Source: Arthrobacter sp. EM1
GTDB taxonomy: Bacteria > Actinomycetota > Actinomycetes > Actinomycetales > Micrococcaceae
Assembly: GCF_029964055.1 (NCBI RefSeq)
Contig: NZ_CP124836.1
Span: forward strand, 806,001 to 870,000
Direction: 5' to 3'
DNA length: 64,000 nt
Numbering within the stretch: the first letter of the stretch is position 1; every line of letters starts with the position of its first letter. The translations under genes and the position numbers were made by a program. This document shows, piece after piece, positions 2 through 34,749 of this stretch. A model generated the notes under the pieces. That model searched no databases, was not told the DNA's origin, and saw only the letters and a list, made by a program, of their open reading frames with translations.

Positions 2-3000
2 GCCCTGCTGCCCAGCGGCGGCAGCGTCCTGGTGGATGTGCTCGGCAACGACTCCGATCCCTCGGGCGGTGTGCTGGTGGTGCAATCCGTGACCGCGGCA
101 GACGGCCTGCCCGTGAACGTTGCCGTGCTGGACCACTCCGTTGTCCGGATCACCGACATCCGCGCGCAGGGCCAGCTCAACATCACTTACACCATCTCCA
201 ACGGCAAATCCTCCGCCAGCGGGGAGATCGCCGTACTGGTGGTCCCGGCCCCGACCAAGCTCCAGGCCCCGCAGGCGAAACCGGACGAAGCGACCGTGCG
301 GGCCGGGGACGTCGTGACCATCCCGGTCCTGGCGAACGACACCGACCCCAACGGTGGAAAACTCACCCTGGAACCGGTGCTCGCGCAACAACCGGATGCC
401 GCGGACGGCCGCATCTTCACCGCCGGTAACTCCCTGCGCTTCATTGCCGGTGAAGTTCCGAAGACCGTCTACGCGATCTACAAGGTCACCAACGCCTCCG
501 GGCAGTCGGACTCCCAGCAGGTCACCATCCGGGTCCGGGGCCGCGACGACGAGCGGAACACCCGCCCCGAGCCGAAGAACCTCACGGCCCGCGTGGTGGC
601 AGGGATGACCGTCCGGATCCCCGTGCCGCTAGACGGTGTTGATGCCGACGGCGACTCCGTCCAGCTGACCGGCGTGGAGAAGGCCCCCGCCATGGGAACA
701 GCCTTGGTCAAGGACGGCTACCTCGAATTCACCGCGGCCGGCAAGGCGGCCGGAACAGACACCTTCAGCTACCGCGTCCGGGACCGGATCGGCGCCGAAA
801 ACACCGGCACGGTCATCATCGGCATCGCGCCGCAGGAGGCAAACAACCAGAAGCCCATCGCCGTCGATGACGGGGTGGACGTCAGGCCCGGCCGCAAGAT
901 CGCCGTCGAGGCCCTCCAGAACGATTCGGACCCGGACGGGGACCCGATCAGCCTGGTCGGCAACGGCTTTGAGGCCCGCGGCGAACTCGCGGTCGAGGCG
1001 GCCGAGGGTGGCAAGGTGCTCCTTACAGCCCCCGGCGCCGCCAGCAACGAGAGCGTCAGCTACAAGATCCAGGACGACAAAAAAGCTCAGGGCAGCGCCG
1101 TCATCCGGGTCCGGGTCAGCCCGGACGCCGCCCTGAAACTGCCCATCGCGAGGGACGACGTGGTGACCCCCGCCGAAACACTTGGCAAGGCCGCCGTCGA
1201 CGTCCCCGTCCTGAAGAACGACTCGGATCCCGACGGCGTCGGGTCCGACCTTAGGATCAGCCTGCCCGACGGCAACCCGAACGCCCGGGTGGGCGACGGC
1301 AGTGTCCGGGTGGCCCTCGCGCCGACGGACCAGCTGGTCCCCTACACAGTTACCGACGTCGACGGCCAAAGCGCGACGGCGGTCATTTGGGTCCCCGGCC
1401 AGGGCGAAGAGCACCCCACGCTGGCCAAAACCGACGTCGTCGAAGTGATGGCCGGCAAGCAAATCGACCTGGACCTGAACGACTACGTCCGGGTCCGGGA
1501 GGGCCGCACGCCCCGGATCACCCAGCTGGACAACGTCCGTGTGCAGGGCGCTGACCCGCAGAACGTCGTGGCAGGCAACGGCAGCGCGCTGCGCTACGCC
1601 GCGCTCAAGGACTATGTGGGCCCCGGCTCCGTCACCTTCGAAGTCACCGACGGCACCGGACCGGACGATCCGCAGGGCCTCAAATCCACCCTCAGTATCA
1701 TCACCACTGTGATTCCCGATCCGAACGCGAACCACCAGCCGAGCTTCAGCGGAGCCACCCTGGAGGTGCCCAAGGCTGAGTCCGCGAGCCTGGAGCTGGG
1801 CAACCTGGCCAAGGACGTTGACTCCGGGGACCAGGAGAAGCTCACGTTCGAACTCGACGGCACCCTGCCCGAAGGCTTCAAGGCATCCATGGATGGCGGG
1901 ACCCTGAAGGTCACCGCAGACTCCGCCAAGGCCGCCGGCTGGAAGGGCAGCATCCCGGTCAAGGTCACCGATGGCCGCTCCGAGCCGGTCAAGGCAAGCA
2001 TCACGGCGACCGTCGTGGCCTCCAACCGTCCGCTGCCGGTCGCGAACGAGGACGTCATCGAGAAAGCCAACGCCGGCAAGACCGAGACCATCAATGTGCT
2101 CGCCAACGATTTCAACCCCTTCAGCGACACCCCGCTGAAGATTGTCGCCGCCACCGTGGAAACCGGCTCCGCAGCCGGACAGCCAGTAGTTGCCGGGGAC
2201 TCGATCACGCTCACCCCGGCCGCCGGTTTCAAGGGCGTGCTGGTGCTGCGCTACACCGTGATGGACAAAACCAACGACGTGTCCCGGCAGACCGATGGCC
2301 GGGTCCGGATCACGGTCCGGGACAAGCCGGATGCCCCCTCGGCGCCGGCCGCCACCGACGTGCGCAGCCGGACAGCTGTGCTCAAATGGGCGCCGCCCTC
2401 GGACAATGGTGCCACCATCAGCAAATACGCGGTGCGCTCCAGCAACGGCTTCAGCCAGGAGTGCCCGACCACCACCTGCACACTCAGCGGACTGACCAAC
2501 GACGTTAAGTACGTCTTCACCGTAACCGCCACCAACGAGGTGGGGGAGTCCGTGCCCTCGCCGGCCTCCAACGAGATCAGGCCGGACGAGAAGCCCTCGC
2601 CGCCGGAGGCCCCCACGGTCAAAGCCGGGGACAAGAACATGGTGATCGCCTGGCCCGCGGCCAAGTCCGAAGGCTCGGCCGTGAAGAGCTACAACCTGGA
2701 GATCTCCCCGCCGCCGGCCAGCGGAATCGCCGTGAAAAACGGTGTGGCCGGCCTCGGCTACACCTGGCCCGGGCTGACCAACGGCGTGCGGTACAAGGTC
2801 CGCGCCCAGGCCGTCAACGAACTCGGCCCCTCTGAGTGGGGCCTCTACTCGGCCGAAGACAACCCCGCCGGCATGCCGGCCGCCCCGGCAGCCCCGACGA
2901 CGGCTGTGGCATCCGCCGTCGGGAGCTCCAACCAGCTGAAGGTGAACTGGACCGAGCCGAACACCAACGGCGACGCCATCAAGAACTACTACGTCACCAT

Positions 3001-4069
3001 GAGCGGCGGCGGCGGCACCACCCAGACCCAGCTGGTCGCCGGAACGGTGCGGACCGCGAACTTCACCGCGAACAACTCCGAGGCCGGCTACACCTTCACG
3101 GTCCAGGCCGAGAACAAAGCGGGTAAAGGCGCGGTCAGTGCGGCCTCGGCACCGCGCCGTGCCACCGGCAAGCTCAGCCCGGTCTCCGGCGTGAGCGCGA
3201 CGCCGGCGGACACCGGCGGCGCGGGCCGGGCCGTGGTCATCAACTTCCGCGAACTCGACGCGGCCGGGCGCAACGGCTCCCAGCCCGGGGAGGTCAGCTA
3301 CACGTACTACGCGAGCCCCAGCGGAAAGACCGGGGCAGTGACGCCGGGCCAGAAGGTCGGCGGCTTCACCAACGGCCAGGCCGGCACCATTACCGTGACG
3401 GCCAACTCGTCCGTCGCGCCGAGCTCCGACGCCAGTACCGGGGCCGCCGCCACACCGTACGGCGCACCCGGAACGCCCGCGGCGTCCGGGCAGAACGGCG
3501 CCGAGAACCAGAAGAACCTCAGCTTCAACTGGAGCTCGCCGTCCACAACGGGCAACGACGTCGCCTACACGCAAATCAAGATCGACACCGGAGGCTGGGA
3601 ACGGGTCGCCGCCTCGGGCAGCCGGACCATCAACACCGGCGGCTTCAGTGAACCGCACCAGATCCAGGTCCAGACCGTCAACTCAGTCGGTACCGGCGGT
3701 CCGATCGCGTCGGCCTCGGCCCGGTCCGGGACCGAGAAGACCCGTTGGACCACCAGGCTCAACACGGGCATGACCCGCAGCTGCACCGACCTGCCCGGCG
3801 CGACGTCGTACGACAACAGCCAGCCGGGGAACTTCACCTGCGACGGCCAGGGCGGCACCAACCGGCCGTGGATGGCAGCGTCCGACGTCTTCGACATCAT
3901 GTGCTGGAAGCCGCACGGCACCCCGTACAGCGGGAACGGCGAGTGGTACTACATCGTGCGCGGTTCGCCGAACCAGACGCGCTGGATCGATTCGCGGCAC
4001 ACGACTATCGGACCACCCGGGCAGAGCGGCGTTCCGCTGTGCACCTTCCCGGTCGGAGCAACACCATAG
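2..4069 (+). CDS. Giant Ig-like/fibronectin-III surface protein, 5' end missing
   Basis: The frame is open from base 2, so the N-terminus lies outside the window; the first internal ATG (base 32) is not the real start. About 1355 residues are visible. They begin inside an Ig-like module and continue through about eight cadherin/Big_9-type Ig modules, recognisable by the recurring acidic motif NDSDPDGD or its variants (probable calcium-binding or inter-module turns). About five fibronectin-III-like modules follow, starting near base 2320 (motif KPDAPSAPAATDV). The C-terminal cap of about 110 residues has several cysteines (RSCTDLPG, DIMCWKP, PLCTFP), probably disulphide bonded outside the cell. 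The order matches the C-terminal two thirds of the next gene module for module, so the two are tandem paralogues. Expected to be membrane anchored and extracellular. It is the 5'-most visible member of a PFNA-like cluster. The ligand is unknown. Confidence 0.85.
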   Translation, partial: ALLPSGGSVLVDVLGNDSDPSGGVLVVQSVTAADGLPVNVAVLDHSVVRITDIRAQGQLNITYTISNGKSSASGEIAVLVVPAPTKLQAPQAKPDEATVRAGDVVTIPVLANDTDPNGGKLTLEPVLAQQPDAADGRIFTAGNSLRFIAGEVPKTVYAIYKVTNASGQSDSQQVTIRVRGRDDERNTRPEPKNLTARVVAGMTVRIPVPLDGVDADGDSVQLTGVEKAPAMGTALVKDGYLEFTAAGKAAGTDTFSYRVRDRIGAENTGTVIIGIAPQEANNQKPIAVDDGVDVRPGRKIAVEALQNDSDPDGDPISLVGNGFEARGELAVEAAEGGKVLLTAPGAASNESVSYKIQDDKKAQGSAVIRVRVSPDAALKLPIARDDVVTPAETLGKAAVDVPVLKNDSDPDGVGSDLRISLPDGNPNARVGDGSVRVALAPTDQLVPYTVTDVDGQSATAVIWVPGQGEEHPTLAKTDVVEVMAGKQIDLDLNDYVRVREGRTPRITQLDNVRVQGADPQNVVAGNGSALRYAALKDYVGPGSVTFEVTDGTGPDDPQGLKSTLSIITTVIPDPNANHQPSFSGATLEVPKAESASLELGNLAKDVDSGDQEKLTFELDGTLPEGFKASMDGGTLKVTADSAKAAGWKGSIPVKVTDGRSEPVKASITATVVASNRPLPVANEDVIEKANAGKTETINVLANDFNPFSDTPLKIVAATVETGSAAGQPVVAGDSITLTPAAGFKGVLVLRYTVMDKTNDVSRQTDGRVRITVRDKPDAPSAPAATDVRSRTAVLKWAPPSDNGATISKYAVRSSNGFSQECPTTTCTLSGLTNDVKYVFTVTATNEVGESVPSPASNEIRPDEKPSPPEAPTVKAGDKNMVIAWPAAKSEGSAVKSYNLEISPPPASGIAVKNGVAGLGYTWPGLTNGVRYKVRAQAVNELGPSEWGLYSAEDNPAGMPAAPAAPTTAVASAVGSSNQLKVNWTEPNTNGDAIKNYYVTMSGGGGTTQTQLVAGTVRTANFTANNSEAGYTFTVQAENKAGKGAVSAASAPRRATGKLSPVSGVSATPADTGGAGRAVVINFRELDAAGRNGSQPGEVSYTYYASPSGKTGAVTPGQKVGGFTNGQAGTITVTANSSVAPSSDASTGAAATPYGAPGTPAASGQNGAENQKNLSFNWSSPSTTGNDVAYTQIKIDTGGWERVAASGSRTINTGGFSEPHQIQVQTVNSVGTGGPIASASARSGTEKTRWTTRLNTGMTRSCTDLPGATSYDNSQPGNFTCDGQGGTNRPWMAASDVFDIMCWKPHGTPYSGNGEWYYIVRGSPNQTRWIDSRHTTIGPPGQSGVPLCTFPVGATP

Positions 4070-4136
4070 CCGCCGGCCCGGGCCGGGAACCGCTCGACGG
4101 GCAGTCCTCCCCATCGCATGCCGCCGGATCATTGGG

Positions 4137-4142
4137 TAGGCT
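4137..4142 (+). promoter_or_regulatory. Possible -10 box upstream of the second giant protein gene
   Basis: The 145-base gap between the two giant-protein genes holds TAGGCT, fitting the actinobacterial TANNNT -10 pattern, about 70 bases before the GTG start. No convincing -35 was found. It would allow the downstream operon to be transcribed separately from the upstream paralogue. Confidence 0.3.
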
Positions 4143-4214
4143 GTGGCGGGAAGTGCGCGGCCCTGTCTCGGGTCTGCCGGGGAACCACAACGCAATCTTG
4201 AAGGAATCTGAGCT

Positions 4215-7200
4215 GTGACACGTCTGCTCGCCACGCTGGAATCCAAAATGCCGGGATCCAAGAAACCCGGATCAACGAAGCCGCGATCCGGCCATCCTGG
4301 GTCCAACGCACGGCGCAAGAAGCTTATTGCTGGTGCCGCTATTGTGTCTGCTGCGGCCGTCCTGGTTGCTGCTGCCATCATTTATCCGGGGTTTAAGACC
4401 GCTGAGGTTCAGTTGAACGATGGCGGGGTGTGGGTGGTGTCGAAGTCGAAGAATGCGGTGGGTCGGTTGAATTATCCGTCCCGGGTTTTGGATGGTGCGG
4501 TGACGCCGGCGAGTTCGACTTTTGATGTGTTGCAGGATGCCGGGACTGTGTTTGTTGATGATAGTGCGGGTTCGACGTTGAATCAGGTGTCGGCGGCGCA
4601 GATGCGGTTGGGTGGGGATAAGAAGTTGCCGGGTTCGGCGGCGGTGAGTTTTGGTTCGGCGGTTATTGCGGTGACGGATCCGGCGAAGGGTACGGTGTGG
4701 GCGCTCTCGCCCTCGACGGTGAATGGTTTTGATGCTGAGGAGTCCGAGCCGGTGCTGGCTGGTTCGGCCGGGACGGTCTCTGCGGTGGGTTCCGATGACC
4801 GGATTTACAGTGCGGATCCGAAGACCGGTCAGGTGACTGTGACCTCGGTGGATGCTGAGGGCAAGGTGGAGCGCTCGAGCGTCAGCGTCTGGGACGGGCT
4901 GAAGGGTGCGGGGGATTTGCAACTGAGCGTGGTGGGGGATGCGCCGGTGGTCCTGGATGCGGGGCGGGGAAAGTTGTTCCTGCCGGGCGGGCGTGAGTTG
5001 GCGTTGGAGCAGGCGCGGGATGCGAAGTTGCAGCTTTCGGGTCCGGCTGCGGACTCGGTCGCCGTTGCCACGCCGAAGGCGTTGTTGAAACAGCCGCTGG
5101 ACGGGTCGACGGCGAAGACTGTCAGCTTTGGCGGGCAGGGTGTGCCGGCGGCGCCGGTGCAGCTTGCGGGGTGCATTCATGCGGCGTGGTCGGGGGCGAA
5201 TAAGTATGTCCGTGAGTGTGTTAATGATGCTGATGACAAGAGCGTGGATGTGCCGAAGGCGAGTGCTTCGCCGTCGTATGTGTTCCGGGTGAACCGGGAT
5301 TTGGTGGTCCTGAACGATGTGAATTCGGGCAATGTGTGGCTGGTGAACCAGAACATGCAGCTGGTCAACAACTGGGACGACGTTATCCCGCCCAAGAACC
5401 AGTCCGATGACCAGGACCAGGAGTCGGCGGACAACAACACCATCAATATCCTGCCGGACCGCACCAAACCCAACCGGCCGCCGGAAACCAAACCGGACGC
5501 CGTCGGCGTCCGTCCGGGCCGCACCACAGTCCTGTCCGTACTCGATAACGATTCCGACCCCGACGGCGACGTCCTCACGGCCTCCGTGGGCGACAAAGGC
5601 CCCGCCTCCGGCGGCCTCGAGAACATCTACGGCGGCACAGCTTTCCAGGTCACAGTGCCGGCCGACGCGAAACCGGGCACCGAAACGTTCGGCTACAGCG
5701 CCGCAGACGGCCGCGGTCTCTCCGCCGCCGGCAGCATCACCCTCAGCGTCGTGGGCCCGGACGAGAACAGGCCGCCCTTGTTCAAACGCGGAGACCCCAC
5801 CACCATGCTGGTGGAGCAGGGCAAAACCGTCAGCCAGAACATCCTCACCGACTGGACTGATCCCGACGGCGATGACCTGGTGCTGATGGACGCCAAGGCG
5901 GACAACGAACAGGACCAGGTCAAGGTCCGCCGCGACGGCCTGCTCACGTACCAGGACTCCGGCGCCGCGCCCGGTAAAAAATCCGTTACGGTGTCCATCT
6001 GGGACGGGCGCGCCACCACCACTGCCAAAGTCATCGTCAACGTCCAGCCCCCCGGCGCCCTGCAGCCGGTGGTCAACGCGGACCACGTCACCGCCGTCGT
6101 CGGCCAGGACCTCCTGATCGCGCCGCTGAAAAACGACGTCGACCCCAACGGCGGCGCCCTGCGCCTCGCCCAGGTGGAAGGCGCCGGAACCGCCCAGCTG
6201 GGACCCGTGACGGACGGTGGCACTTTCACCTTCCGCAGCGACACCCCCGGACCGGTTTACCTGACGTACATTGCCAGCAACGGCCCGCAGAGCAGCCAGG
6301 GCCTGATTCGTGTAGACGTTGAATCCGGCAAGGACTCCGGCAAGCCGGTGGCCGTCCACGACGTCGCGCTGCTGCCGGTCGGCGGCAGTGTGCTCCTGGA
6401 CCCGCTGGCCAATGACTCGGACCCGTCCGGGGGAGTGCTGGTGCTGCAGTCCGTCCAGCTGCCGGAGAACACAACAGCCTCTGTCAGCGTGATCGATCAC
6501 AGCATGCTGCGGATCACTGACGTTGTGGGCACCAAGGAACCCTTTACCTTCAGTTACACCATGTCCAACGGCACCAGGTCGGCCACGGGCAGCGTCGCCG
6601 TGGTCCCGGTCCCGGCCCCCGCCGTCGTCGAGGCCCCCCAGCCCAAACCGGACGAAGTGAACGTGCGGGTCAACGACGTTGTCACCATCCCGGTGCTGGC
6701 CAACGACACGCACCCGCAGGGCGAAAAGCTGAGCGTGGACCCGGTGCTCCCGCAGCCCGTCCCGTCGGCCGACGGCAAGAGTTTTATCTCCGAAAACACG
6801 CTGCGCTTCATCGCCGGCGCCGAGCCCAAGACGGTCCGCGCCATCTATAACGCCGTGGACCCGCAGGGCCAAAAGAGCGCCGCTGCCGTCACCATCCACA
6901 TCCTGCCGCTCGACGGCGCCCAAAACACCCGGCCGCAGCCGAAAAACCTCACCGCCCGCGTCGTGGCGACCGGGTCCGTGCGGATCCCGGTGGAACTCGA
7001 CGGGATCGACCCCGACGGCGACTCGGTCCAGCTGACCGGCATCGACAGCACCCCCGCCATGGGCACAGCCACAGCGGGCAGCAACTTCATTGACTTCACG
7101 GCAGCCGGGGACGGCGCCGGAACGGACAGTTTCCGCTACAAAGTCGTGGACCGGCAGGGAGCCATCAACACCGGCACCGTGACCGTCGGGATCGCCCCGC

Positions 7201-10200
7201 GCGGTGACACCAACCAAAAGCCGACCCCTGTCGATGACGAGGTCAAGGTCCGGCCCGGGCGGCAGATCGCGGTGGACGCCATGCGCAACGATACCGATCC
7301 CGACGGCGACCCCATCCGGATCGCCGGCGACGGCATCGAGGCCGCCCCGGAGCTGCAGGCGACAGTCAGCAAGCAGAGCTCCCGCATCATCCTGCTTGCA
7401 CCAGGCGGGGAAGGCACCGTTAACGTGCGCTACTCGGTGGCGGACGACCGCGGCGCGACGGCCCAGGCGGCCATTTCCGTCAAGGTCGACAAGAACGTCC
7501 CGCTGCTGGCTCCGGTTGCCCGGGATGACCGGGTGACCTCTGCCCAGACGCTCGGGAAAACGGCCGTCGACGTCCCCGTCCTGAAGAACGACGAGGACCC
7601 TGACGGCGTGGGCGAGAACCTCAAGATCGCCTCTGAGGTGCCCACGGCGAAGCCCGGCACCGACGGCAACATGATCGTGGAGCTGACGGAGCAGCCGCAG
7701 CTGATCCCCTACACCGTCGAAGACGTGGACGGCCAGCAGTCCACCGCCATCATCTGGGTCCCGGGGCTGGGCCAGCAGGTACCCACCCTGGCCAAGGACG
7801 AGGTCATCGAGGTTATCGCCGGGCAGTCCGTGCCAGTGGACCTCAAGGAGTGGGTCAAGGTCCGCGAGGGCCGCACGCCGCGCCTGACCCAGACGGACCG
7901 GATCAAACTTATTGGCGCCGACGGCTCCGACCCCGTGGCCGGCAACGGCACTGCCCTGAAATACAGTGCGGGCAAGGACTATGCGGGTCCCGGTTCCCTC
8001 AGCTTCGAGGTCACCGACGGCTCCGGCCCGGACGACCCCGCCGGCCTGAAAGCAACCCTCAGCATCCGCACCAGGGTGCTGCCGGACCCCAACCGCAACA
8101 ACCCGCCAGTGCTGCTGGGCAGCCAGGTGGACGTGCCCAAGGCTGACTCCGCCACGACCGACCTGGCCAAGTTGACCACCGATCCGGATGACGGCGACGT
8201 CGACACGATGAAATACGAGCTCGTCGGCAGCGTGCCGGCCGGCTTCGATGCCAGCATCGACGGCAAGACCCTAAGAGCCGCCGCCAAGGACGGCACCAAT
8301 GCCGGGACCGCGGGCGCCGTCCAGGTCAAGGCCAAGGACCCCCGGGGACTCGAGGCGACGGCCACCTACCAGCTCACCGTGACCGCCTCCAACAGGCCCA
8401 AACCGGTCGCCAACGACGACGTCGAAACCAACGCCGCCGCCGGGAAGCCCGTCACCGTCAGGGTGCTCGACAACGATGCCAACCCGTTTCCGGAGACCGC
8501 GCTGAAGATTGTCTCGGCAGTGACCGAGACGGGCCAGGGCACCGCCGCCGCCACCGGCGACACCGTCACGGTGACCCCTGCCGACGGGTTCTCGGGAACC
8601 ATGATCGTGGCCTACACGGTGGCGGATAAGACCGGCGAGTCCTCGCGCTACGCCACGGCCCGGATCCGGCTGACGGTCAAGGACAAGCCGCTGGCGCCGA
8701 CCACGCCGCAGGCCGCGAGCGTGGGGGACAGCACTGCGTTGCTGAACTGGGCCGCGCCAGCGGACCGCGGCTCGGCCATCACCAAATACACGGTGTTTGG
8801 GGAGGGCGGCTACAGCCAGGACTGCCCGGCCAACTCCTGCACGCTGACCGGACTGACCAACAACACCAAATACCATTTCCAGGTCACGGCCACCAACGCC
8901 CTGGGCACCTCGGAGCGGTCCCCGGCATCGGCCGAGGTACGCCCCGACGTTAAGCCGGACACCCCGGCCGCGCCGGCCCTGAAGTTCGGCGACACCCAGC
9001 TCGCCGTGGCCTGGACGGCCCCCGCGTCCAAGGGCTCGCCGGTCAAGTCCTACGACCTGGAAATCTCGCCGGCGCCGGCAGGCCAGAACGCCCAGATCCA
9101 GAACCTCACCTCGGTGAGCTACCTCTGGAAGGGCCTCAAAAACGGTGTCGCCTACAAGGTCCGCGTCCTGGCCCGGAACGATGCGAAGGAGCCCTCCGAG
9201 TGGAGCGCCTATTCGGCCGCCGAGACTCCGGCAGGGGTCCCGGTGACCCCGGCGGCACCGAGCGCCAGCCAGGCCGGTTCCGTGGGGAACCAGAGCCAGC
9301 TTAAGATTTCCTGGGCGGCGCCGAACAACAACGGCGACGCGGTCTCGGCCTATACGCTGACTACCCTGAACGGCGGCGCGCCGGTATCGACCCAACAGGT
9401 CGCCGGCACCTCGCAAAACGTCACGGTGGCGAATTCGGAAGCGGATTACACCTTTACTGTTTCGGCAACCAACAAGGCCGGGACCTCCGGAGTGAGTCCG
9501 CAGTCAGCCCGGATCCGGGCCGCAGGCAAGCCCGGCACGGTCAGCAGCGGGACCGTAAAGGAGACCGGCACCAGCGGCCAGTTGGCCGTGACGTTCACGC
9601 CGCTCACGCAGGCCCAGCGCAACGGCTCCCAGGCCACGGAGATCACCTACCGCTGGTCCACCGCCAGTGGCTCCGGCCCGATCAACGCCGGCGGCGGCAC
9701 CATCGGCGGCCAGCCGAACGGCCAGAACGTCACCGTCAACATCATCGCCGCCTCCACCAAAAACAATGTCGCCGGGGACGCGAACGCGATCGGTACGGGC
9801 AATCCATACGCCCCGCCGAACGCCCCCAACGTCAACGGCGGCAAGTCAGGTGCCGGGGATGGCCAGGTCCACTGGACGTGGAACAACCCCAGCACCAACG
9901 GCCGGCCCCTGGCCCGGTATGAAGTGAACCTCGACGGCGGCGGCTGGACATCCGTTGGCACGGCCAACAGGTTCGATGCTGCCGGGGGCGGCTGGGACAA
10001 GACCAGGACCCTGCAGGTGAGGGCCTTCACAGTGGCCTACGGCGGGGCGGGACAGGCATCGGCCACGTCCGGGAACGATCCCACACCGCCGCCGCCTGCC
10101 TCGCAGATCCAGGTCGATGCCTCAAGCGTCCGGACGTGCCCGGGCCAGCCGGGAAAGCCTGATTCCTTCGTCCCCGGTTCCCCCTCGAGCTGCGGTGTCG

Positions 10201-10361: not shown

Positions 10362-10452
10362 TGCCTGCCACTGTCCCCAACGCCGCCCCCCGCGGGGCTC
10401 CCCGCCGCCGGCACCCCACGCAATTCCACCCAGAACAGAACAGGACCACCCC

Positions 10453-11427: not shown

Positions 11428-11476
11428 CGGCACCGAGTAGCGCTCCCCGTCACCCCGAACGAACAAAGGCACCCAT

Positions 11477-17818: not shown

Positions 17819-19517
17819 CGCCACCGCTGCAGTGCGCTACACACCGGGCAGCTGGCTCGGGGTGGTGCGCTCGGGAACCGTGGTGCTGCTGCACCCGGAC
17901 AGCACACCGGCCCTCGTTGAGTCGCTGTGGGAACTTCTGGGCACCGGACCGGAAGCGCCCGAAGTCCTCGATACCTTGTCCGCGGCCTCGGGCGGGTCAC
18001 TTGCCCGGCTGCCGTGGTTTGCGATAGTGGCCGGCACCGGTTCTCTCCAGTTGTTCCTGCGCGGCGGGATCGACCTGACGGTGGAGCTGCCCGGCGGCCC
18101 GGTGGAACTGAGCGGCCGAGACGTGACCACGTGGACCGAACGGCGGTTCGAAGCTGCCGACGGATTCAGCCTGAGAATTCCCGGTGCGGAGGCCGCAGGT
18201 GCGCCCCGCGCCGCCGCGGAGCTGCGGCTGGCAGACGGGGTGGTTCTGCTCAAGGGCCTGCGGATGGACCTTCGTGCGGCTGCCCTGCCGGGTGCACTGA
18301 CGGCCGCCGGGGCGGGCGCCGACGGTGCGTCGGCAGAGACCGTGCTGGCATATCCCGTCGAGGACCTGGAGCTGGAGCGGACGCTGCACGGGGAACCGGA
18401 ACCGGAACCGGAACCGGAACCGGCGGCCGCAGCGCCGGCCGAACCGGAACCGGCGGCCGCTGAACCGGAACCCGAACCGGAACCGGCGGCCGCAGGCCGG
18501 GAACCCGCCGGTCCGGATCAGGATCAGGAAGCCTCCGGAGCGCAAAAGCCCGCCGCATCGGAGCCCGCCGAACAGGAGCCGACAGGCAGCTACGATCACC
18601 TTTGGGAACAAACGGTGATGCGGAATATCGAAGACGCAGCCGTCCGCGAGGACCCGGACGCCGACTCGGAACTCTCCGGTGACTTTGCCGAAACGCCCCC
18701 AGGGCCGACGCCTGAGCCGGCCGCGGCGGTGGCGGTGGCGGAACCAGCAGCCGCTCCCGCCCCTGCCCCGGATCCACCCGCGGCCCCGCACCCGGTGTCC
18801 ACCGGACTGATCGATTCCGTCCCCTGGCACACCGGCGGGGCCCGTTCCTCGCCGGCTGCGCCCGCGCCGGCACCTGCGCTTGCGCCACTGCCGGCGGTCC
18901 CCCTGCCGACGGCGGCACAGCAGCACGTTCCGATGCTCCCGGCCGCCCGCACCGAAACGGACGCCGACCACGACGGCCAGACCATCATCAAGGGCGACCT
19001 CGCCGGTGCCGGCCCGCAGCCGCCCAGCACCCAGCGCGCGGCGGCGGAACAGGCTACCGGACCGATGGTGCTTGCCCGGGTCTGCCCGCAGGGCCACGCC
19101 AACCCGTCCACGTGCGCCCAGTGCGGCCGCTGCGGCCAGCCGCTGCCCGGTGACGGCGTCCAGGTCAGGCGGCCCCGCCTCGGCCAGATGCGCCTGTCCA
19201 CCGGTGAGCTGATCGACCTGACCCAGTCCCTCATCGTGGGACGCCAGCCTTCGGTGTCCCGCGTCCAGGGCGCCGTGATGCCCAAGCTGATTCAAGTAGC
19301 GAGCCCCAGCGGAGACATCTCCCGCTCGCATGTGGAGGTCCGGCTAGAAGGCTGGCACGTGATGCTGTGTGATTTGAAGGCGACCAACGGCACGGTACTG
19401 GTCCGCGAAGGACAACCCCCGCGCCGGCTCGCCCAGGGCGAAATGGCAATCGTGCTGGACGGTGACATCGCCGAGGTCGGCGACGGCATCTCGCTGCGTT
19501 TTGAGGAGATCCCGTGA
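17805..19517 (+). CDS. FHA-domain protein with Glu-Pro-rich linker and Cys-rich knuckle
   Basis: The chosen ATG at 17805 has AAGGA at 17792-17796, giving 570 residues; in-frame upstream codons fall inside the phosphatase gene and were not used. The N-terminal domain (about 1-190) is beta-rich and unrecognised. A long disordered Glu/Pro/Ala linker follows (about 195-440). Near 425-455 a cysteine cluster (CPQGHANPSTCAQCGRCG) looks like a small zinc knuckle. The C-terminal FHA domain (about 465-570) shows LIVGRQPSVSRV, ISRSHVEV and LKATNGT. It is probably a cytoplasmic phosphothreonine reader for the neighbouring kinase, corresponding to fha of the PFNA cluster. Its stop overlaps the kinase start (GTGA). 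Confidence 0.87.
   Translation: MPSTNATAAVRYTPGSWLGVVRSGTVVLLHPDSTPALVESLWELLGTGPEAPEVLDTLSAASGGSLARLPWFAIVAGTGSLQLFLRGGIDLTVELPGGPVELSGRDVTTWTERRFEAADGFSLRIPGAEAAGAPRAAAELRLADGVVLLKGLRMDLRAAALPGALTAAGAGADGASAETVLAYPVEDLELERTLHGEPEPEPEPEPAAAAPAEPEPAAAEPEPEPEPAAAGREPAGPDQDQEASGAQKPAASEPAEQEPTGSYDHLWEQTVMRNIEDAAVREDPDADSELSGDFAETPPGPTPEPAAAVAVAEPAAAPAPAPDPPAAPHPVSTGLIDSVPWHTGGARSSPAAPAPAPALAPLPAVPLPTAAQQHVPMLPAARTETDADHDGQTIIKGDLAGAGPQPPSTQRAAAEQATGPMVLARVCPQGHANPSTCAQCGRCGQPLPGDGVQVRRPRLGQMRLSTGELIDLTQSLIVGRQPSVSRVQGAVMPKLIQVASPSGDISRSHVEVRLEGWHVMLCDLKATNGTVLVREGQPPRRLAQGEMAIVLDGDIAEVGDGISLRFEEIP
18392..18500 (+). repeat. GAACCG hexanucleotide-rich low-complexity tract
   Basis: Reiterated GAACCG units encode Glu-Pro dipeptides interrupted by Ala-rich blocks in the linker of the FHA protein. 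Six-base slippage stays in frame. Confidence 0.75.
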
Positions 19518-21145
19518 GCTCCAAACGGCCGGTAGCCCCGCCGCCGGTGATTCCGGGCTTCAATTACATCAGCCTGCTCGGCTCCGGCGGATTCTCCGAC
19601 GTCTATCTCTACGGGCAGGAGCGGCCGCGCCGCAATGTCGCCGTCAAGGTACTGCTTTCGGACCTGAAGACCGAGGGTGCCCGCCGCCGCTTCGAATCCG
19701 AAGCAAACTTGATGGCGCAGTTGTCCTCGCACCCTTACATCGTGACGATCTTCGAAGCCGAAATCACCGACGCCGGGCATTCCTACCTCGCGATGGAGTA
19801 CTGCTCGCGGCCCAGCCTGGACGTCCGCTACCGTCGGCAGCCCTTCAGCGTGGACGAGGTGCTCGCAGTCGGCATCCAGGTGGCGTCCGCCGTCGAGACC
19901 GCCCACCGGGCCGGGATAGCGCACCGCGACATCAAGCCGGCGAACATCCTCGTCACCGACTACAACCGGCCGGCCCTGACTGACTTCGGGATCTCCGGAA
20001 CCCTCGCCGGCGACTCGGACGAGGACGCCGGCATGTCCATCCCGTGGTCGCCGCCCGAGCAGTTCACCGGCCACCATGTCGACGGGGTCCTGGTGGACGT
20101 CTGGGCGCTCGGCGCCACGCTGTACACCCTGCTGGCCGGCCGGTCCCCGTTTGTGCTGCCGGGGGCGGACAACTCCCAGCGGGAGCTGATCTCACGGATC
20201 ACCAACTTGCCGGTGCCCAAGCTGGGCCGCGCCGATGTCCCGGAATCCCTGGAACTGGCGCTCGCGACGGCGATGGCCAAGGCCGCACCATCCCGATACT
20301 CCTCGGCGCACGCTTTCGCACTGGCCCTGCAGCGGATCCAGGCCGAGCTGAACCTCTCCGTGACACCGTTCGAGGTCCTGGAGGAACCGCGCGCGGAGGA
20401 AAACCATCCGGACGACGGCTTCGAAGAAACCAGGGTCCGCAGCGTCGCCGCGATCGACCCGGACGCCACCGGCAACACACCGACCTTCCCGGCCCGGTTC
20501 GGCGGCGCTGACACCAGTTCCACAGTGGACAACGCAACAACGTTCAACAACGCAACCATCCACCGCCCGCCGGCGCTGCCGGCCTTCGAGGCCCCCGTAA
20601 CCGGAGCCGCCGAAGGAGCTGCGGCCCCCGAAGATGACCTTGCGGCCACGGTCAACCGCTCCAGCACGGCCCCCGCGGCCAGCCCAAACGACGGCGCGGA
20701 GGCCCACCCGGCCGGCCACGGCCGACGCACGCTGCTGCTCTCGATTGTCGGCGGCACCGTCCTGGTGGCCGCCGCCGTGCTCGGAATAGTTGCGTCAACC
20801 ACCGGGTCCGAGCCGGCTCCGAAAGCCACCGACCAGGTCAGCAAACCGCCCGCCGACGCCCTGGACAACGGCACAGTGCCCGACGTCACCGCGCTGGCCG
20901 GGGTGGCCGGGGCGGCCGGGAAGGTCAGCTTCACTTGGACCAACCCGCAGCCGAAACCCGGCGACAGCTACAAGTGGCGGGTCCACACTCTCAAGGGTGA
21001 CGGGGACTACCAGTCGTCCGCCGGGCCGGCCGCTGAAATTGCCGCGAATCCGGCCGAACCCAGCTGCATTCAGGTGATGATCGTCCGCACCGACGGGGCG
21101 TCTTCGCCGCTGGGTCCGGATTCGATCGCCTGCGTCAGCAAATAG
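19514..21145 (+). CDS. Transmembrane Ser/Thr protein kinase with FN3-like sensor domain
   Basis: 543 residues, GTG start overlapping the previous stop. The Hanks-type kinase domain (about 15-275) has a glycine loop GSGGFSDV (23-30), Lys45 in VAVKV, HRDIKPAN with catalytic Asp139, and DFG at 157-159, so it should be active. A 130-residue juxtamembrane linker leads to one membrane helix (406-428, LLLSIVGGTVLVAAAVLGIV) and a short extracellular domain of about 110 residues with an FN3-like pattern (KVSFTWTNPQPKPGDSYKWRVH) and two cysteines. PASTA repeats, found in many actinobacterial kinases, are absent. It corresponds to pkb2 of the PFNA cluster. Substrates are likely cluster proteins recognised by the three FHA readers. 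Confidence 0.95.
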   Translation: MSSKRPVAPPPVIPGFNYISLLGSGGFSDVYLYGQERPRRNVAVKVLLSDLKTEGARRRFESEANLMAQLSSHPYIVTIFEAEITDAGHSYLAMEYCSRPSLDVRYRRQPFSVDEVLAVGIQVASAVETAHRAGIAHRDIKPANILVTDYNRPALTDFGISGTLAGDSDEDAGMSIPWSPPEQFTGHHVDGVLVDVWALGATLYTLLAGRSPFVLPGADNSQRELISRITNLPVPKLGRADVPESLELALATAMAKAAPSRYSSAHAFALALQRIQAELNLSVTPFEVLEEPRAEENHPDDGFEETRVRSVAAIDPDATGNTPTFPARFGGADTSSTVDNATTFNNATIHRPPALPAFEAPVTGAAEGAAAPEDDLAATVNRSSTAPAASPNDGAEAHPAGHGRRTLLLSIVGGTVLVAAAVLGIVASTTGSEPAPKATDQVSKPPADALDNGTVPDVTALAGVAGAAGKVSFTWTNPQPKPGDSYKWRVHTLKGDGDYQSSAGPAAEIAANPAEPSCIQVMIVRTDGASSPLGPDSIACVSK

Positions 21146-21174
21146 CAGCAACAATGTCCAGAAAGGCATGGCAT

Positions 21175-21906
21175 ATGGGGGATCTGGCGATAGATTTCTG
21201 CGGCGAGTGGCATGAGCCCGCGGACGATGACATCTTCAGCATCGGCCGCGAAGGCGACCTTGAGGTGGATGACAATCCGTACCTGCACCGGCAGTTCCTG
21301 CAGATCGCCCGCTACGACGGCATCTGGTGGCTGAACAATGTCGGCAGCAGGCTCTCGGCCACCATCGCTGACGCCTCCGGCGGGATGCAGGCCTGGCTCT
21401 CGCCGGGCGCACGGATTCCACTGGTCTTTAGCCTGACCAACGTCATCTTCACCGCAGGCCCCACCACCTACGAGTTTGCCGTCCACCTGCGGACTCCTGC
21501 GTTTCGGCAGGAATCCCGCGACGCGGACAGCAGCGGAGACACCACTATCGGCCCGGTGCTTTTTACCGACTCGCAGAAGGCCCTGATCGTGGCCCTCGCC
21601 GAACCCATGCTGCGCCGCGACGGGACCGGCTTCAGCGCCATCCCGTCCTCGGCAGAGGCCGCCAGGTCGCTGGGCTGGGCCCTGACCCGGTTCAACAGAA
21701 AGCTGGACAATGTGTGCGACAAGCTCGACAAAGCGGGGGTCGCCGGCCTGCGTGGAGGCGGCGGAAAACTTGCGAGCAACCGCCGCGCACGGCTCGTTGA
21801 ACATGCCATCACCTCACACCTGGTGACGGCGGCGGACCTGCACCTGCTGGGCGGGCCCGGCCTGGGCCAGCCCGCTCATGACCTGAACGGAGTTGAGGAA
21901 GCGTGA
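21175..21906 (+). CDS. FHA-like protein with C-terminal helix-turn-helix-like region
   Basis: The start at 21175 (MGDLAIDFCGE) is preferred because AGAAAGG lies eight bases upstream; an in-frame ATG at 21154 is possible. About 243 residues. The first about 110 are beta-rich with an FHA-like pattern (FSIGREGDLEVDDNPYLHRQ, then WWLNNVG), although the usual SxxH is replaced by LHRQ. From about residue 130 the protein is helical (FTDSQKALIVALAEPMLRR, AARSLGWALTRFNRKLDNVC), resembling the winged-helix segment of FHA-HTH proteins. The function is unknown; it might link the phospho-signal to transcription or dock on the adjacent motor. Its last four bases overlap the FtsK/EssC-type gene. Confidence 0.75.
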   Translation: MGDLAIDFCGEWHEPADDDIFSIGREGDLEVDDNPYLHRQFLQIARYDGIWWLNNVGSRLSATIADASGGMQAWLSPGARIPLVFSLTNVIFTAGPTTYEFAVHLRTPAFRQESRDADSSGDTTIGPVLFTDSQKALIVALAEPMLRRDGTGFSAIPSSAEAARSLGWALTRFNRKLDNVCDKLDKAGVAGLRGGGGKLASNRRARLVEHAITSHLVTAADLHLLGGPGLGQPAHDLNGVEEA

Positions 21907-24900
21907 GAATCCGACTGACGCTGCGCCGCGACCCGGCCGAAGCGAAAGACCTTGCCGTCACCGTTGACGGGCTAGCCACCGTGGCTGACATCGCCACCCA
22001 GCTTTGGGCGGCCGACCCCTCCCGGCGGGGCACTGCGCCGCCGCCAAACCTGTCCTTGAGCATCGAGGAAGCCTTCGCCGCCGGCGGCATGAAGGGCAGC
22101 GTCCTGGACCGCGGGGACAACCTGCTCGAATCCGGGCTGCGGCCGGGCTCCATTGTCTCGCTCGCCCGGCTCAGCGAGCAGTTCGGGACGCCCGGGGCGA
22201 GCCGCGGTCCGGCGGCGGCAACGCTGCGTGTGCTCTCCGGACCCGACGTCGGACGCGAATTCTCGCTGCCCTCGGGCACCAGCTACCTCGGCCGCGGCCG
22301 CGACGCCGACGTCCGGCTCACGGACCCCCTGACTTCCAAGCGGCACGCCCGCATCACTGTCGGCGAGACAGTCGAGATCGTGGACACAAATTCGGCCAAC
22401 GGGCTGTTGATGGACGGGCTGCCGGTCACCCGCGCGACGCTTAACTCCTCGGACACGGTGGCCCTGGGCGACACAACCGTCTCCGTGGTCTCCCTTGGCA
22501 CCGGGCACAGCTCCGCGCCAAGCTCCCCGTTGATCGACTTCAACCGCTCCCCGCGGGTGGTGCCGCGCTTCGAACTGCAAAAACGGATGCTCCCGGCCGG
22601 ACCCAAGCGCCAGGAGCACCACGCCTTCCCGTACATCATGCTGCTGGCGCCGCTGATGATGGGCGGAATCCTGTTTGCCGTCACCCAAAATGTGCTCTCG
22701 GTGGTGTTTATGCTGATGATGCCGTTGTTCATCGTGGGCCATTACGTAGACCAGAAGCTGCAGGCCAAACGGGAACGGAAGGAACAGCTAAAGCAGTTCC
22801 GCGAGTCGATGGCGGCGTTCCGGGCCGAAACTACGCGGCTGCAGAACGTGGAACGCTCCGTCCGGCTGCAGGAAACACCCTCGGTCAGTGACACCGTGGA
22901 CTCGATCTACAAGCTCGGCCCGCTGCTCTGGACCCACCGGCCCGAGCACACCGGATTCCTGGGACTTCGCTTCGGCCTGGGCACCGCGCCCTCAAGGATC
23001 CAGTTCGAAGAGCCCAACAGCAGCGATACCGAAGCCGAGTACATGGCCGAAATCCAGCAGTGCCTGGCACAGTTCCGGGACATCGAAGGTGTGCCGATCG
23101 TCTCGCAGTTGCGCTCCGCCGGCTCCTTCGGCCTCGCCGGTCCCCGCGGCCTGGTCGACGATGTTGCCCGCGGGATGGTCTTGCAGCTCGCGGGCCTGCA
23201 TTCGCCAGCGGAAGTGGTGCTGGCCGCCATCACCTCGGCGCAATCCAAGGAACGCTGGGAGTGGCTGCAGTGGCTCCCGCACGTCGGCTCCGGCCACAGC
23301 CCGCTCAGCGGCGACCATCTTGCCGCCGGCCCGGGGGGCGGCTCGGCCCTGCTGTCAAGGCTGGAAGACCTGATCGACCAGCGCGAGGCAGCATCCCAGA
23401 CGCCCCGCCCCGTCCTGCGGCCCGGCGTCGACCCGCTCAGCACCGACCTTGCCGGGCCGCTGCTGCCCACCGTGCTGGTGGTCGTCGAGGACGACGCCCC
23501 GGTGGACCGCGGCAGGCTCACCCGGATGCTCGAACGCGGCCCCGACTCGGGGGTACACGTGATGTGGGTGGCTTCGTCGGTGCAGCAACTGCCGGCCGCG
23601 TGCCGGGACTTTATGGCCATCGACGGCGAGCACGGAACCACCACCGGCCAGGTCCGGCTCGGCCGGCACACCTTCCCGGTGAGCTGCGAAAGCCTCGATG
23701 CCGGCCTGGCAGCCCAACTGGCGCGGATGCTCACCCCCGTTGTGGACGTCGGCAAGCCGCTCGAGGACGAATCCGACCTGCCCCGGGCAGTTTCCTACGC
23801 CACCTTGATCGGCAAGGATTTCCTGGACAAGCCGGCCGTCGTGGCCGAACGCTGGACCGAGAACAACTCCGTCCGGGCCTCCGCGGTGCCCAACCGCAAG
23901 GACAACGGCACGCTCCGGGCACTGGTCGGCTCCAAAGGCATCGAACCGCTCTACCTCGACCTCAAAAACGAGGGACCGCACGCACTTGTTGGCGGCACCA
24001 CCGGCGCCGGAAAATCCGAGTTCCTGCAGTCCTGGGTGATGGGAATGGCCGCAGCGTACAGCCCGGACCGGGTAAGTTTCCTTTTCGTTGACTACAAGGG
24101 CGGCGCCGCGTTCGCGGACTGCCTGCAGCTGCCGCACACCGTGGGCTTGGTCACCGACCTGTCCCAGCACCTTGTCCGCCGTGCCTTGACCTCCCTGCGG
24201 GCCGAACTGCACTACCGCGAACGGCTGTTGAACCGGAAAAAGGCCAAGGACCTGCTGGAGCTCCAGCGCGAAGCGGACCCGGACGCGCCGCCGTACCTGA
24301 TCATCATTGTGGACGAGTTCGCGGCGTTGGCCACCGAAGTCCCGGAGTTTGTCGACGGCGTGGTGGACGTCGCCGCCCGCGGCCGCTCCCTGGGCCTGCA
24401 CCTGATCCTGGCCACCCAGCGCCCGGCCGGGGTGATCAAGGAAAGCCTGCGCGCCAACACCAACCTGCGGGTGGCGCTGCGGATGGCCGATGAGGATGAC
24501 GCGATCGACATCCTCGGCGTGCCGACGGCTGCGTACTTCGACCCCTCCATTCCCGGACGCGGCGCCGCCAAGACCGGTCCCGGCCGGATCCAGGGCTTCC
24601 AGACCGGTTACGCCGGCGGCTGGACCACCGAGAAGCCGCAGCGGCCGCAGATCGAGATCGTCGAGATGGCCTTCGGCTCAGGTCCGGCCTGGGCCGCGCC
24701 GGTACCCGAGAACCCGGTGCAGGAAGAAGCGGCGGGTCTGAACGACATCGCCAGGATGACGGCGAACATCATCAAAGCCGCCGACGTACTCTCCATCGAG
24801 CCTCCCCGCAAACCCTGGCTCGACGAACTCGCCACGACCTATGACTTCTCCCGGCTGCCCAACCCCCGCACTGACGAACGGCTGCTCTTGGGCGTCGCGG

Positions 24901-26348
24901 ACGACCCGGCGCACCAGGACCAGCCCACGGTGTTCTACGAGCCGGACCGGGACGGCAACATGGCCATCTACGGCACCGGCGGATCCGGCAAGTCCGCTGC
25001 CCTGCGCGGCATCGCGATCGCCGCCGCTGTCACCCCGCGCGGCGGCCCGGTAAACATCTATGGCATCGATTGCGGCTCCTCGGGGCTGAAGATGCTCGAC
25101 GGACTGCCGCACGTCGGCGAAATCATCAACGGCGACGACGTCGAGCGGGTCGGCCGGCTGCTGCGCTGGCTCCGGGACCTGGCCGACGACCGGGCGGCCC
25201 GCTACTCGGAGGTCCGGGCGTCGACCATCGTGGAGTACCGGACCCTGGCGGAGCAGCCGGCGGAAAAGCGGATCTTTGTGCTGGTGGACGGTATGTCCGC
25301 CTTCCGGGAAGCCTACGAATACAGCAAGCTCTCCGCGTTATGGGACATCTTCCTGCAGCTCGCCACCGACGGCCGTCCGCTCGGCATCCACCTTGTCATC
25401 AGCGGGGACCGGCCCAACTCGGTGCCGGCGTCGCTGCTGGCCTCGATCCAGCGCCGGCTGGTGCTGCGGCTGTCCTCCGAGGACGACTACCTCTCGATGG
25501 ATGTGCCCAAGGACGTCCTGGGCCAGGCCTCGCCTCCGGGGCGCGGCCTGCTGGGCAACCTCGAAGTGCAGCTCGCCGTGCTTGGCGGCAACTCCAACCT
25601 GGCCGTGCAGGCCCGCGAGGTCAACAAACTCAGCCAGGCCATGCTGCGCCAAGGCGTCGAACCGGCCCCGCAGATTGAACGCCTGCCGGACCACATCGAC
25701 CTCGACATCCTGCCCGCCGGCAGCCCTGACCTGCCGGTCATCGGCGTCGACGACGAAACGCTCCAGCCCGCCGAGATCCTGGCCAAGGGCCCGCTGCTCC
25801 TCGCCGGCCCTCCCGGTGCCGGCCGCACCGTGGCACTGGTGACCCTTGCCTACGCGCTGCGCCGGTCAAACCCCGGCGTCGAACTTTTCTACATCGGTTC
25901 CCGCCGCTCGGCGGCAGCGTCCCTGAAGCTCTGGGACCGTTCCGTGGTGGGCGCCGACGACGTCGAGGAGGCACTTGACGAACTGGTGGACTACTCCACC
26001 GGCACCCCGGGCAAGCTCGCAATCTTCATCGAGGGGCTGACCGACTTCACCGACACAGGGGCGGAATCCGGGATCGAACGGCTCGTCACGGCCTCGATCA
26101 AGGCCGAACAGTGGGTGGTGGGCGAGTCCGAAACCTCCACCTGGTCCTCGGCCTGGTCCCTCGCGCAACCGTTCAAGTCCGGCCGCCGGGGCCTGCTGCT
26201 GAACCCGGGCGACATCGACGGCGACAGCCTGCTCAGCACCTCGCTGGGCCGGATCAGCACCGACTTCGTCCCCGGCCGCGGCTACATCGTGGGCCGCGGC
26301 AAGGTCCGCAAACTCCAGCTCGCGCTGCCGCCGGAGAACCGGAACTAG
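21903..26348 (+). CDS. FHA-FtsK/SpoIIIE ATPase, EssC/EccC-like secretion motor
   Basis: 1481 residues, GTG start overlapping the upstream stop, with GAGGAA before it. Layout: an N-terminal small beta domain (1-85, possibly ubiquitin- or FHA-like), an FHA domain (about 105-200: YLGRGRDADVRL, SKRHARI, NSANGLL), two membrane helices (about 242-285), an EssC-type linker, then three ATPase domains. Domain 1 is canonical (GGTTGAGKS 697-705; IIIVDEFAAL with D804 E805). Domain 2 has Walker A GTGGSGKS (1024-1031), but its Walker B reads VLVDGMS, without Glu. Domain 3 has GPPGAGRT with Arg1308 in place of Lys. This matches type VII secretion motors, where only the first ATPase is fully active. No WXG100 substrate or other core secretion gene is visible. 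It is the last gene of the cluster. Confidence 0.9.
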   Translation: MRIRLTLRRDPAEAKDLAVTVDGLATVADIATQLWAADPSRRGTAPPPNLSLSIEEAFAAGGMKGSVLDRGDNLLESGLRPGSIVSLARLSEQFGTPGASRGPAAATLRVLSGPDVGREFSLPSGTSYLGRGRDADVRLTDPLTSKRHARITVGETVEIVDTNSANGLLMDGLPVTRATLNSSDTVALGDTTVSVVSLGTGHSSAPSSPLIDFNRSPRVVPRFELQKRMLPAGPKRQEHHAFPYIMLLAPLMMGGILFAVTQNVLSVVFMLMMPLFIVGHYVDQKLQAKRERKEQLKQFRESMAAFRAETTRLQNVERSVRLQETPSVSDTVDSIYKLGPLLWTHRPEHTGFLGLRFGLGTAPSRIQFEEPNSSDTEAEYMAEIQQCLAQFRDIEGVPIVSQLRSAGSFGLAGPRGLVDDVARGMVLQLAGLHSPAEVVLAAITSAQSKERWEWLQWLPHVGSGHSPLSGDHLAAGPGGGSALLSRLEDLIDQREAASQTPRPVLRPGVDPLSTDLAGPLLPTVLVVVEDDAPVDRGRLTRMLERGPDSGVHVMWVASSVQQLPAACRDFMAIDGEHGTTTGQVRLGRHTFPVSCESLDAGLAAQLARMLTPVVDVGKPLEDESDLPRAVSYATLIGKDFLDKPAVVAERWTENNSVRASAVPNRKDNGTLRALVGSKGIEPLYLDLKNEGPHALVGGTTGAGKSEFLQSWVMGMAAAYSPDRVSFLFVDYKGGAAFADCLQLPHTVGLVTDLSQHLVRRALTSLRAELHYRERLLNRKKAKDLLELQREADPDAPPYLIIIVDEFAALATEVPEFVDGVVDVAARGRSLGLHLILATQRPAGVIKESLRANTNLRVALRMADEDDAIDILGVPTAAYFDPSIPGRGAAKTGPGRIQGFQTGYAGGWTTEKPQRPQIEIVEMAFGSGPAWAAPVPENPVQEEAAGLNDIARMTANIIKAADVLSIEPPRKPWLDELATTYDFSRLPNPRTDERLLLGVADDPAHQDQPTVFYEPDRDGNMAIYGTGGSGKSAALRGIAIAAAVTPRGGPVNIYGIDCGSSGLKMLDGLPHVGEIINGDDVERVGRLLRWLRDLADDRAARYSEVRASTIVEYRTLAEQPAEKRIFVLVDGMSAFREAYEYSKLSALWDIFLQLATDGRPLGIHLVISGDRPNSVPASLLASIQRRLVLRLSSEDDYLSMDVPKDVLGQASPPGRGLLGNLEVQLAVLGGNSNLAVQAREVNKLSQAMLRQGVEPAPQIERLPDHIDLDILPAGSPDLPVIGVDDETLQPAEILAKGPLLLAGPPGAGRTVALVTLAYALRRSNPGVELFYIGSRRSAAASLKLWDRSVVGADDVEEALDELVDYSTGTPGKLAIFIEGLTDFTDTGAESGIERLVTASIKAEQWVVGESETSTWSSAWSLAQPFKSGRRGLLLNPGDIDGDSLLSTSLGRISTDFVPGRGYIVGRGKVRKLQLALPPENRN

Positions 26349-26376
26349 GCCGCTGCCAACGGCGTGCCGGTCCTGC

Positions 26377-26405
26377 TTAAGGTTATCGATGATTGTCGAT
26401 ACGCT
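26377..26405 (+). promoter_or_regulatory. Putative promoter with ArsR-like operator upstream of the arsD-like/arsA genes
   Basis: TTAAGG (26377-26382) and TACGCT (26400-26405) are 17 bases apart. Between them lies a perfect dyad, TATCGA-N6-TCGATA (26384-26401), placed where a repressor would block RNA polymerase. Similar ATCGAT/ATCAAT half-sites occur before arsC. Binding by the local ArsR is inference. Confidence 0.5.
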
Positions 26406-26434
26406 AGGGGGAGTTACCGTCTAGGGAGAACCAC

Positions 26435-28338: not shown

Positions 28339-28371
28339 CGGGGGCGATGCCCCGCCCGGAGCCGGCGAAGG

Positions 28372-29112: not shown

Positions 29113-29121
29113 GGCAACAGC

Positions 29122-29153: not shown

Positions 29154-29157
29154 ACCA

Positions 29158-29829: not shown

Positions 29830-29877
29830 CCGGGCCGCGACACCAGGCGGGACGGCCAAGCCGACATAAGCAAGAAA

Positions 29878-30439: not shown

Positions 30440-30449
30440 GAGCACGACC

Positions 30450-31564: not shown

Positions 31565-34749
<3,185 letters not shown>

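Follow-up and report, generated by a model that had tools for sequence, protein, structure and literature searches.

The 64,000-nucleotide stretch considered here, referred to as the window, comes from Arthrobacter sp. EM1 (RefSeq assembly GCF_029964055.1, contig NZ_CP124836.1) and corresponds to G000:C1:806001-870000 of a 3.89-Mb genome assembled as a single contig. It opens with a cluster of 11 genes, located at 0.80-0.83 Mb, which runs from a giant immunoglobulin-like/fibronectin type III (Ig/FN3) protein to an EssC/EccC-type motor, with all genes on one strand and mostly overlapping (Table 1). This confirms the gene string that had been noted in the original prediction made from this DNA. 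The first gene starts 2.1 kb upstream of the window, and its complete frame (C1:803872-810069; L005:3872-10069) encodes 2065 amino acids. The cluster probably constitutes a phospho-threonine-regulated type VII secretion system (T7SS) whose motor is predicted to export WXG100-domain proteins, and it is best read as a new actinobacterial type VII variant that carries a regulatory and envelope module of the type found in the bifidobacterial PFNA operon.

Table 1. Features of the cluster and its downstream neighbours (window positions)
Feature	Position	Strand	Remarks
Giant 1, C-terminal part	2..4069	+	Big_9/cadherin-like and fn3 repeats
Giant 2	4215..10361	+	2048 aa; architecture as giant 1
MoxR-family AAA ATPase	10453..11427	+	AAA_3, 211 bits
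DUF58 protein	11477..12808	+	Two predicted membrane helices
TgpA-like membrane protein, transglutaminase fold	12805..15363	+	No Cys around the expected catalytic site
Zn ribbon-RDD-FHA membrane protein	15360..16826	+	FHA with conserved R/S/N phospho-threonine site
PP2C-type phosphatase	16823..17818	+	DGMGG motif intact
C-terminal FHA protein (FHA2)	17805..19517	+	570 aa, inferred start; phospho-threonine site conserved
Ser/Thr kinase	19514..21145	+	HRD/DFG; one predicted membrane helix (408-426), then ~117 residues
FHA-HTH protein	21154..21906	+	FHA fold and helical C-terminus (predicted helix-turn-helix, HTH); in 97/248 genomes of the order
EssC/EccC-type motor	21903..26348	+	1481 aa; FHA and FtsK-type ATPase domains
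Arsenic-type genes (ArsA, ArsR fused to low-molecular-weight phosphatase, pyridine-disulphide oxidoreductase)	26572-31424		
ligA	31601-33916		3' of the arsenic-type genes

The motor combines an FHA domain (residues 102-201) with two predicted transmembrane segments (242-282) and three P-loops, of which those at 698 and 1024 are intact and the third, at 1302, is degenerate. Within NCBIfam it is matched by EssC (TIGR03928; 533 bits over residues 212-1224), EccCa (330 bits) and EccCb (277 bits), all below the curated cut-offs, and the EssC/EccC models together span residues 212-1338, in line with the earlier claim that a motor of this type had been added to the cluster. Among solved structures, EccC (4nh0) and YukB (9qks) give 224 and 207 bits, respectively. 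The motor can be counted, on these matches, as the membrane EccC/EssC ATPase that is expected of a type VII system. At its N-terminus a ubiquitin-like domain is weakly predicted; in the Bifidobacterium-type motors the hhalign match to such a domain reaches a local probability of 88% over 35 columns and 52% globally. The VIA-align rows for the motor model fall mostly on residues 100-201, that is, outside the N-terminal domain, and a search of the viral library returned nothing below an E-value of 0.001; the top row, a ubiquitin, has an E-value of 0.23. The best named match to the motor is that of Arthrobacter sp. H16F315 (100% identity over the best segment), followed by Pseudarthrobacter and Arthrobacter at 95%, and the named genomes with matches are presumably all Micrococcaceae. 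Phylogenetically, the window motor groups with that of G036 (support 1.0) and is separate from the motors of Bifidobacterium and Actinomyces (support 1.0); in this tree, whose sample does not include the Olsenella ATPase TsdC, clade A, defined below, has by itself a support of 0.65.

The substrates predicted for such a motor were sought with a WXG100 profile, A1, built from six domains encoded just 3' of motors in other families, where G034 has five, G030 two and G031 three WXG100-domain genes directly after the motor. The profile matches the solved EsxB/EsxA structures with E-values of about 1e-7 to 1e-6. As had been stated in the original prediction, the window holds no WXG100 gene, and tblastn with the short WXG100 protein of the same genome found no remnant in it. 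The check for such genes outside the window that had been proposed then yielded two in the genome, belonging to a family that tracks the motor: a long protein of 364 amino acids (C1:2754699-2755793) and a short one of 87 (C1:3473396 onward). These genes, at 2.75 and 3.47 Mb, are not adjacent to the cluster, so that the linkage of WXG100 to the ATPase is found by position in relatives and not for the own genes (C1:2754705, C1:3473396). The long WXG100-headed gene is followed by one encoding 217 amino acids (C1:2754699-2756456 for the pair; L007:6699-8456), a candidate partner or immunity gene whose product matches no Pfam or NCBIfam family above its cut-off. Across 41 of 41 distinct WXG100 stretches, selected by profile score, the WxG motif and the Gln and Ser of a C-terminal Q-x3-S are invariant. 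In EsxA an acidic C-terminal residue is described, in the available part of PMC13355648, as acting in export, and by analogy the Q-x3-S might possibly be its counterpart. A classic WXG100 protein (54-67 bits; own copy at C1:349930) served as a control and was rejected as the specific partner of the motor because it occurs in 25/25 genomes of the genus, cluster-less members included. The genome also encodes a second, distant FHA-FtsK motor of 1336 amino acids (C1:2426403-2430413; L045:8403-12413), which together with this classic WXG100 protein may form another system.

The distribution of these genes was followed in 39 genomes searched as relatives, 25 of which belong to the genus, counting that of the window. 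The same 21 of these 25 have the motor (at least 81% identity), DUF58, FHA-HTH and the A1 WXG100 family, and the other four have none of them. The original prediction had named conserved absence of the motor from close relatives as the observation that would speak against it; what was found is a motor in 21/21 cluster-bearing genomes of the genus. Two genomes from outside the genus but within the family, G122 and G263, have the cluster and lack this motor. In the rpoB tree, which does not include G013 as it gave no rpoB match at the threshold, two of the cluster-less genomes, G012 and G022, stand together (support 1.0), and the other two, G010 and G019, lie inside a well-supported group with the window's genome, a pattern that amounts to at least two independent losses. 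Since the distant WXG100 genes and the cluster are missing from the same four genomes, in at least two places of the tree, they were lost in parallel. Of the 21 motor-bearing genomes of the genus, 7 have the short WXG100 gene at most 1.5 kb after the motor. In 51 named loci, a ligA match follows the motor in 44, and a WXG100 gene is found within about 1.5 kb of it in 14, four loci spanning less than 900 bp there. The interval between motor and ligA is occupied by the arsenic-type genes in the window, by a WXG100 gene in some relatives and by a short gap in others; the arsenic-type genes need not explain the missing WXG100 gene, because many other members of the genus have theirs elsewhere. Five genomes (G024, G020, G015, G004 and G014) carry two short WXG100 copies each, one of them downstream of the motor on the same contig, and the equal or near-equal scores of these pairs would be compatible with concerted copies. 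Also in G015, the motor is followed by a Pro-rich open reading frame (ORF) that begins like a signal sequence and has a hydrophobic segment at its C-terminus.

The association extends to the order, of which 248 genomes were surveyed. Clade A, comprising motors with 41% identity or more, is represented in 72 of them, a frame-broken motor in G148 being left outside this count. The order-wide figures derive from 72 clade-A motor, 54 distant motor, 89 WXG100, 76 DUF58 and 98 FHA-HTH rows, and the linkage counts are lower bounds. On the same strand and within 15 kb of the clade-A motor, FHA-HTH is found in at least 49/72, DUF58 in at least 43/72 and either of them in at least 53/72, with FHA-HTH at most 600 bp upstream of the motor in at least 38. 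At least 26/72 clade-A motors are followed on the same strand by an A1-type WXG100 gene, at a distance of 115-1393 bp and 3' in all 26. Among the matches listed, A1 was found in 43 of 72 clade-A genomes versus 16 of 176 others (Fisher p 3e-16, uncorrected for relatedness), and at least 11 of those 16 have a more distant motor. When 20 of the 46 clade-A motors without an A1 neighbour were read for other WXG100 genes, 16 had one within 4.5 kb downstream, four recognised by A1 and 12 that form four classes; representatives of these classes reach 40-58 bits with PF06013, which has a cut-off of 27.3. This raises the number of clade-A motors with a WXG100 gene within 4.5 kb downstream to at least 42/72.

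Several observations weigh against the interpretation of the cluster as one type VII system. A1 was missed in 29/72 clade-A genomes and is present in the 16/176 genomes without such a motor mentioned above, four of the 20 motors read gave no counted WXG100 gene (two candidates were too weak and two had none), and the window itself lacks one. The positions of G010 and G019 inside their rpoB group are poorly supported, and the cluster-less G010 has a distant motor. EccD is absent from the genome, none of the other membrane partners known from type VII systems could be recognised among the cluster proteins, and the ubiquitin-like assignment of the motor N-terminus is weak. Finally, 37 of the 97 genomes with FHA-HTH have no clade-A motor, so that the PFNA-like part occurs motor-free, and in several genomes (e.g. 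G054, G070, G128, G142 and G198) the motor stands away from that part. Since each is found apart from the other, the motor module and the PFNA-like module are separable.

These last observations favor a rival explanation in which PFNA-type signalling/adhesion and a type VII motor are two side-by-side systems that respond to common phospho-signals and form no common machine, and the separate PFNA-like and kinase-giant-motor loci of Bifidobacteriaceae-type genomes point in the same direction. This arrangement is considered rather unlikely, given the same-strand proximity of FHA-HTH or DUF58 to at least 53 of the 72 clade-A motors, the FHA-HTH gene placed immediately upstream in at least 38, and the joint loss of the tested parts in the genus sample. 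Far less probable still is that the motor moves DNA, as translocases of the FtsK kind do, and has no role in protein export. It does give 179 bits with Pfam FtsK_SpoIIIE; however, the EssC/EccC models cover it from residue 212 to 1338, on which ground this candidate was rejected, a further FtsK-like frame of 1054 amino acids exists elsewhere in the genome, and the motor is both linked to WXG100 genes and lost with them.

The original prediction had favored yet another possibility, in which assembly or export of the giant Ig/FN3 proteins would be the task of the kinase/phosphatase-controlled motor. In the window, motor and giants do belong to a single gene string, a very large protein adjoins the motor in the Bifidobacterium-type loci G105 and G161 too, and the reduced motor-less cluster of G026 (PP2C, FHA-HTH and kinase only) has no giant in the stretch examined. 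Yet giants of 1778-2111 amino acids are kept in 10 of the 11 examined FHA-HTH clusters without a clade-A motor, along with the kinase, the transglutaminase-fold protein and usually MoxR and DUF58, and eight of these 10 show no motor-like ORF within the stretch examined. Because the giants persist in these clusters, their retention is independent of the clade-A motor, and the role of the motor as giant exporter is weakened. Each giant of the window, moreover, has only one hydrophobic helix, located close to the N-terminus, and a Pfam scan of the giants gave no WXG100 match. Export of giants by the motor is therefore regarded as improbable. Since the genome has WXG100 genes at other places, and 4/4 sampled close relatives without the cluster lack this WXG100 family, the cluster probably serves phosphorylation-controlled protein secretion and not the export of giants. 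In G268, another motor-less cluster with a giant, only a motor fragment is present, and in G122 (L049+L050, joined 22699-27135) a different, distant EccC-like motor (241 bits) adjoins the cluster on the opposite strand. The two giants of the window are 96-100% identical over residues ~100-400 and 30-64% identical past residue 400, which may have arisen by gene conversion or by a partial duplication involving the N-terminal domain. Directly upstream of giant 1 lies an adenylate/guanylate cyclase-domain gene (L005:2579-3712).

At the level of the signalling enzymes, the motif residues of kinase, phosphatase and FHA domains are largely kept in the aligned relatives, some genomes having contributed no row for some proteins. 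The kinase HRD/DFG motifs are conserved with the sole exception of HHD for HRD in G043, the PP2C DGMGG is conserved throughout, and so are the R/S/N residues of three FHA domains, those of the motor, RDD-FHA and FHA2. The transglutaminase-fold protein behaves differently. HMMER aligns the relevant stretch, with the site near residue 521, to TgpA (6g49), and around the column that we take to hold the catalytic Cys, none of the 25 sequences, two Bifidobacterium-type ones included, has a Cys; the nearby His is also substituted in many of them. Because of this, the protein is likely a pseudo-enzyme. This reading contradicts the published description of the PFNA transglutaminase-fold protein as a presumed cysteine protease, as it is given in the available part of PMC8430577. 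The MoxR systems dealt with in the corresponding part of PMC7159879 are of other kinds.

Comparison with known systems helps to place the cluster. Its PFNA-like content, claimed early on, has been upheld: the bifidobacterial PFNA operon, as presented in the available text of PMC8430577 and PMC6803598, shares the kinase, FN3 giant, MoxR-type ATPase, DUF58, transglutaminase-fold protein, PP2C and FHA genes. All five defining genes are present, and the fn3-MoxR-DUF58-transglutaminase order (fn3-aaa-duf58-tgm) is identical. The window differs in having the kinase on the 3' side instead of first, two giants, an RDD-FHA gene and the motor. The further claim that motor and FHA-HTH fall outside the PFNA description also stood, since neither is described in the accessible parts of those two papers, where FtsK has no occurrences. 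G043 and G027 have their genes in the published order, with no motor in the stretch examined; G105 and G161 carry a kinase-giant-motor-FHA locus that resembles T7SSd and has motors of another clade. These four genomes are taken for members of Bifidobacteriaceae (f4); Bifidobacterium sp. LC6 is the name attached to a relative of their motor.

T7SSd, one of the newer type VII variants, is among the closest known systems. Its description in Olsenella and Bifidobacterium comprises a core of five genes (WXG100, ATPase, kinase, the single-TM protein TsdH, and TsdI) and no ubiquitin-like protein, according to the available part of the report by Garrett, Higginson and Palmer (2024, PMC11217815). It has in common with the window cluster an FHA-bearing EssC-like ATPase with a phospho-threonine site, WXG100, a membrane kinase, a very large Ig-like protein and an actinobacterial host. 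Three of the four components expected at one T7SSd locus (WXG100, FHA-ATPase, kinase and giant Ig-like protein) are in the window, the WXG100 gene being in-locus in some relatives. In contrast with that description, the window has additional MoxR, DUF58, transglutaminase-fold, RDD-FHA, PP2C and FHA genes and a predicted ubiquitin-like motor N-terminus, and its motor is apart from the Bifidobacterium/Actinomyces motors that were taken for TsdC, in a tree sampled without the Olsenella TsdC. With T7SSb (Ess/Yuk) the cluster shares EssC as its closest ATPase model, WXG100 proteins and long WXG100-headed proteins; the motor scores 533 bits versus a TIGR03928 cut-off of 778, and EsaA, EssA and EssB gave no match among the 11 cluster proteins searched with Pfam and the six searched with NCBIfam, a search confined to the cluster and not genome-wide. 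Phosphate-binding residues are lacking in both FHA domains of EssC, according to the part of PMC10765036 available, whereas the window motor has one canonical FHA. With T7SSa (ESX) it shares an EccC-type ATPase and WXG100 in Actinomycetota, but EccD (TIGR03920) is not matched in the genome at E <= 0.001; among the 39 genomes it passes the cut-off in three, far from the clade-A motor in G023 and G030 and without one in G033. By these sequence comparisons the cluster is neither T7SSa, for want of EccD, nor T7SSb by the EssC cut-off, and its motor is apart from the Bifidobacterium-type group. The open-access PubMed Central literature, to which the search was limited (subscription papers lay outside its scope), yielded no description of this gene combination.

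A mechanism can be proposed for the phospho-threonine-regulated type VII system. The membrane kinase would sense an envelope signal and phosphorylate threonines of partner or cluster proteins, on which the FHA domains of the motor, RDD-FHA and FHA2 would dock so that the motor is assembled or opened, and PP2C would reset the phospho-state. The short WXG100 protein of 87 amino acids may be the core substrate and the long WXG100-headed proteins the cargo. MoxR, DUF58 and the putative pseudo-transglutaminase could mature or anchor the giants, which, exported by Sec, would extend through the wall as an arm of the envelope or for target recognition, similar to TsdI in T7SSd. A more specific proposal, advanced only tentatively, is that the Micrococcaceae cluster represents a type VII subtype of its own, whose ubiquitin-like-FHA-EssC motor and Q-x3-S-tailed WXG100 proteins would act by way of giant Ig/FN3 arms that MoxR, DUF58 and the pseudo-transglutaminase build. 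The bifidobacterial PFNA operon, until now interpreted as a host-signalling operon, would then be a motor-less branch of this platform.

The cluster joins two literatures that have been separate, that of PFNA and that of the newer type VII variants, and a soil genus gains a candidate phospho-gated secretion system for which candidate cargo can be named. It also raises the questions of whether type VII secretion may be gated by threonine phosphorylation, whether actinobacterial type VII systems may have motors with a ubiquitin-like partner fused to them, and what role MoxR-DUF58-transglutaminase modules would have beside giant proteins.

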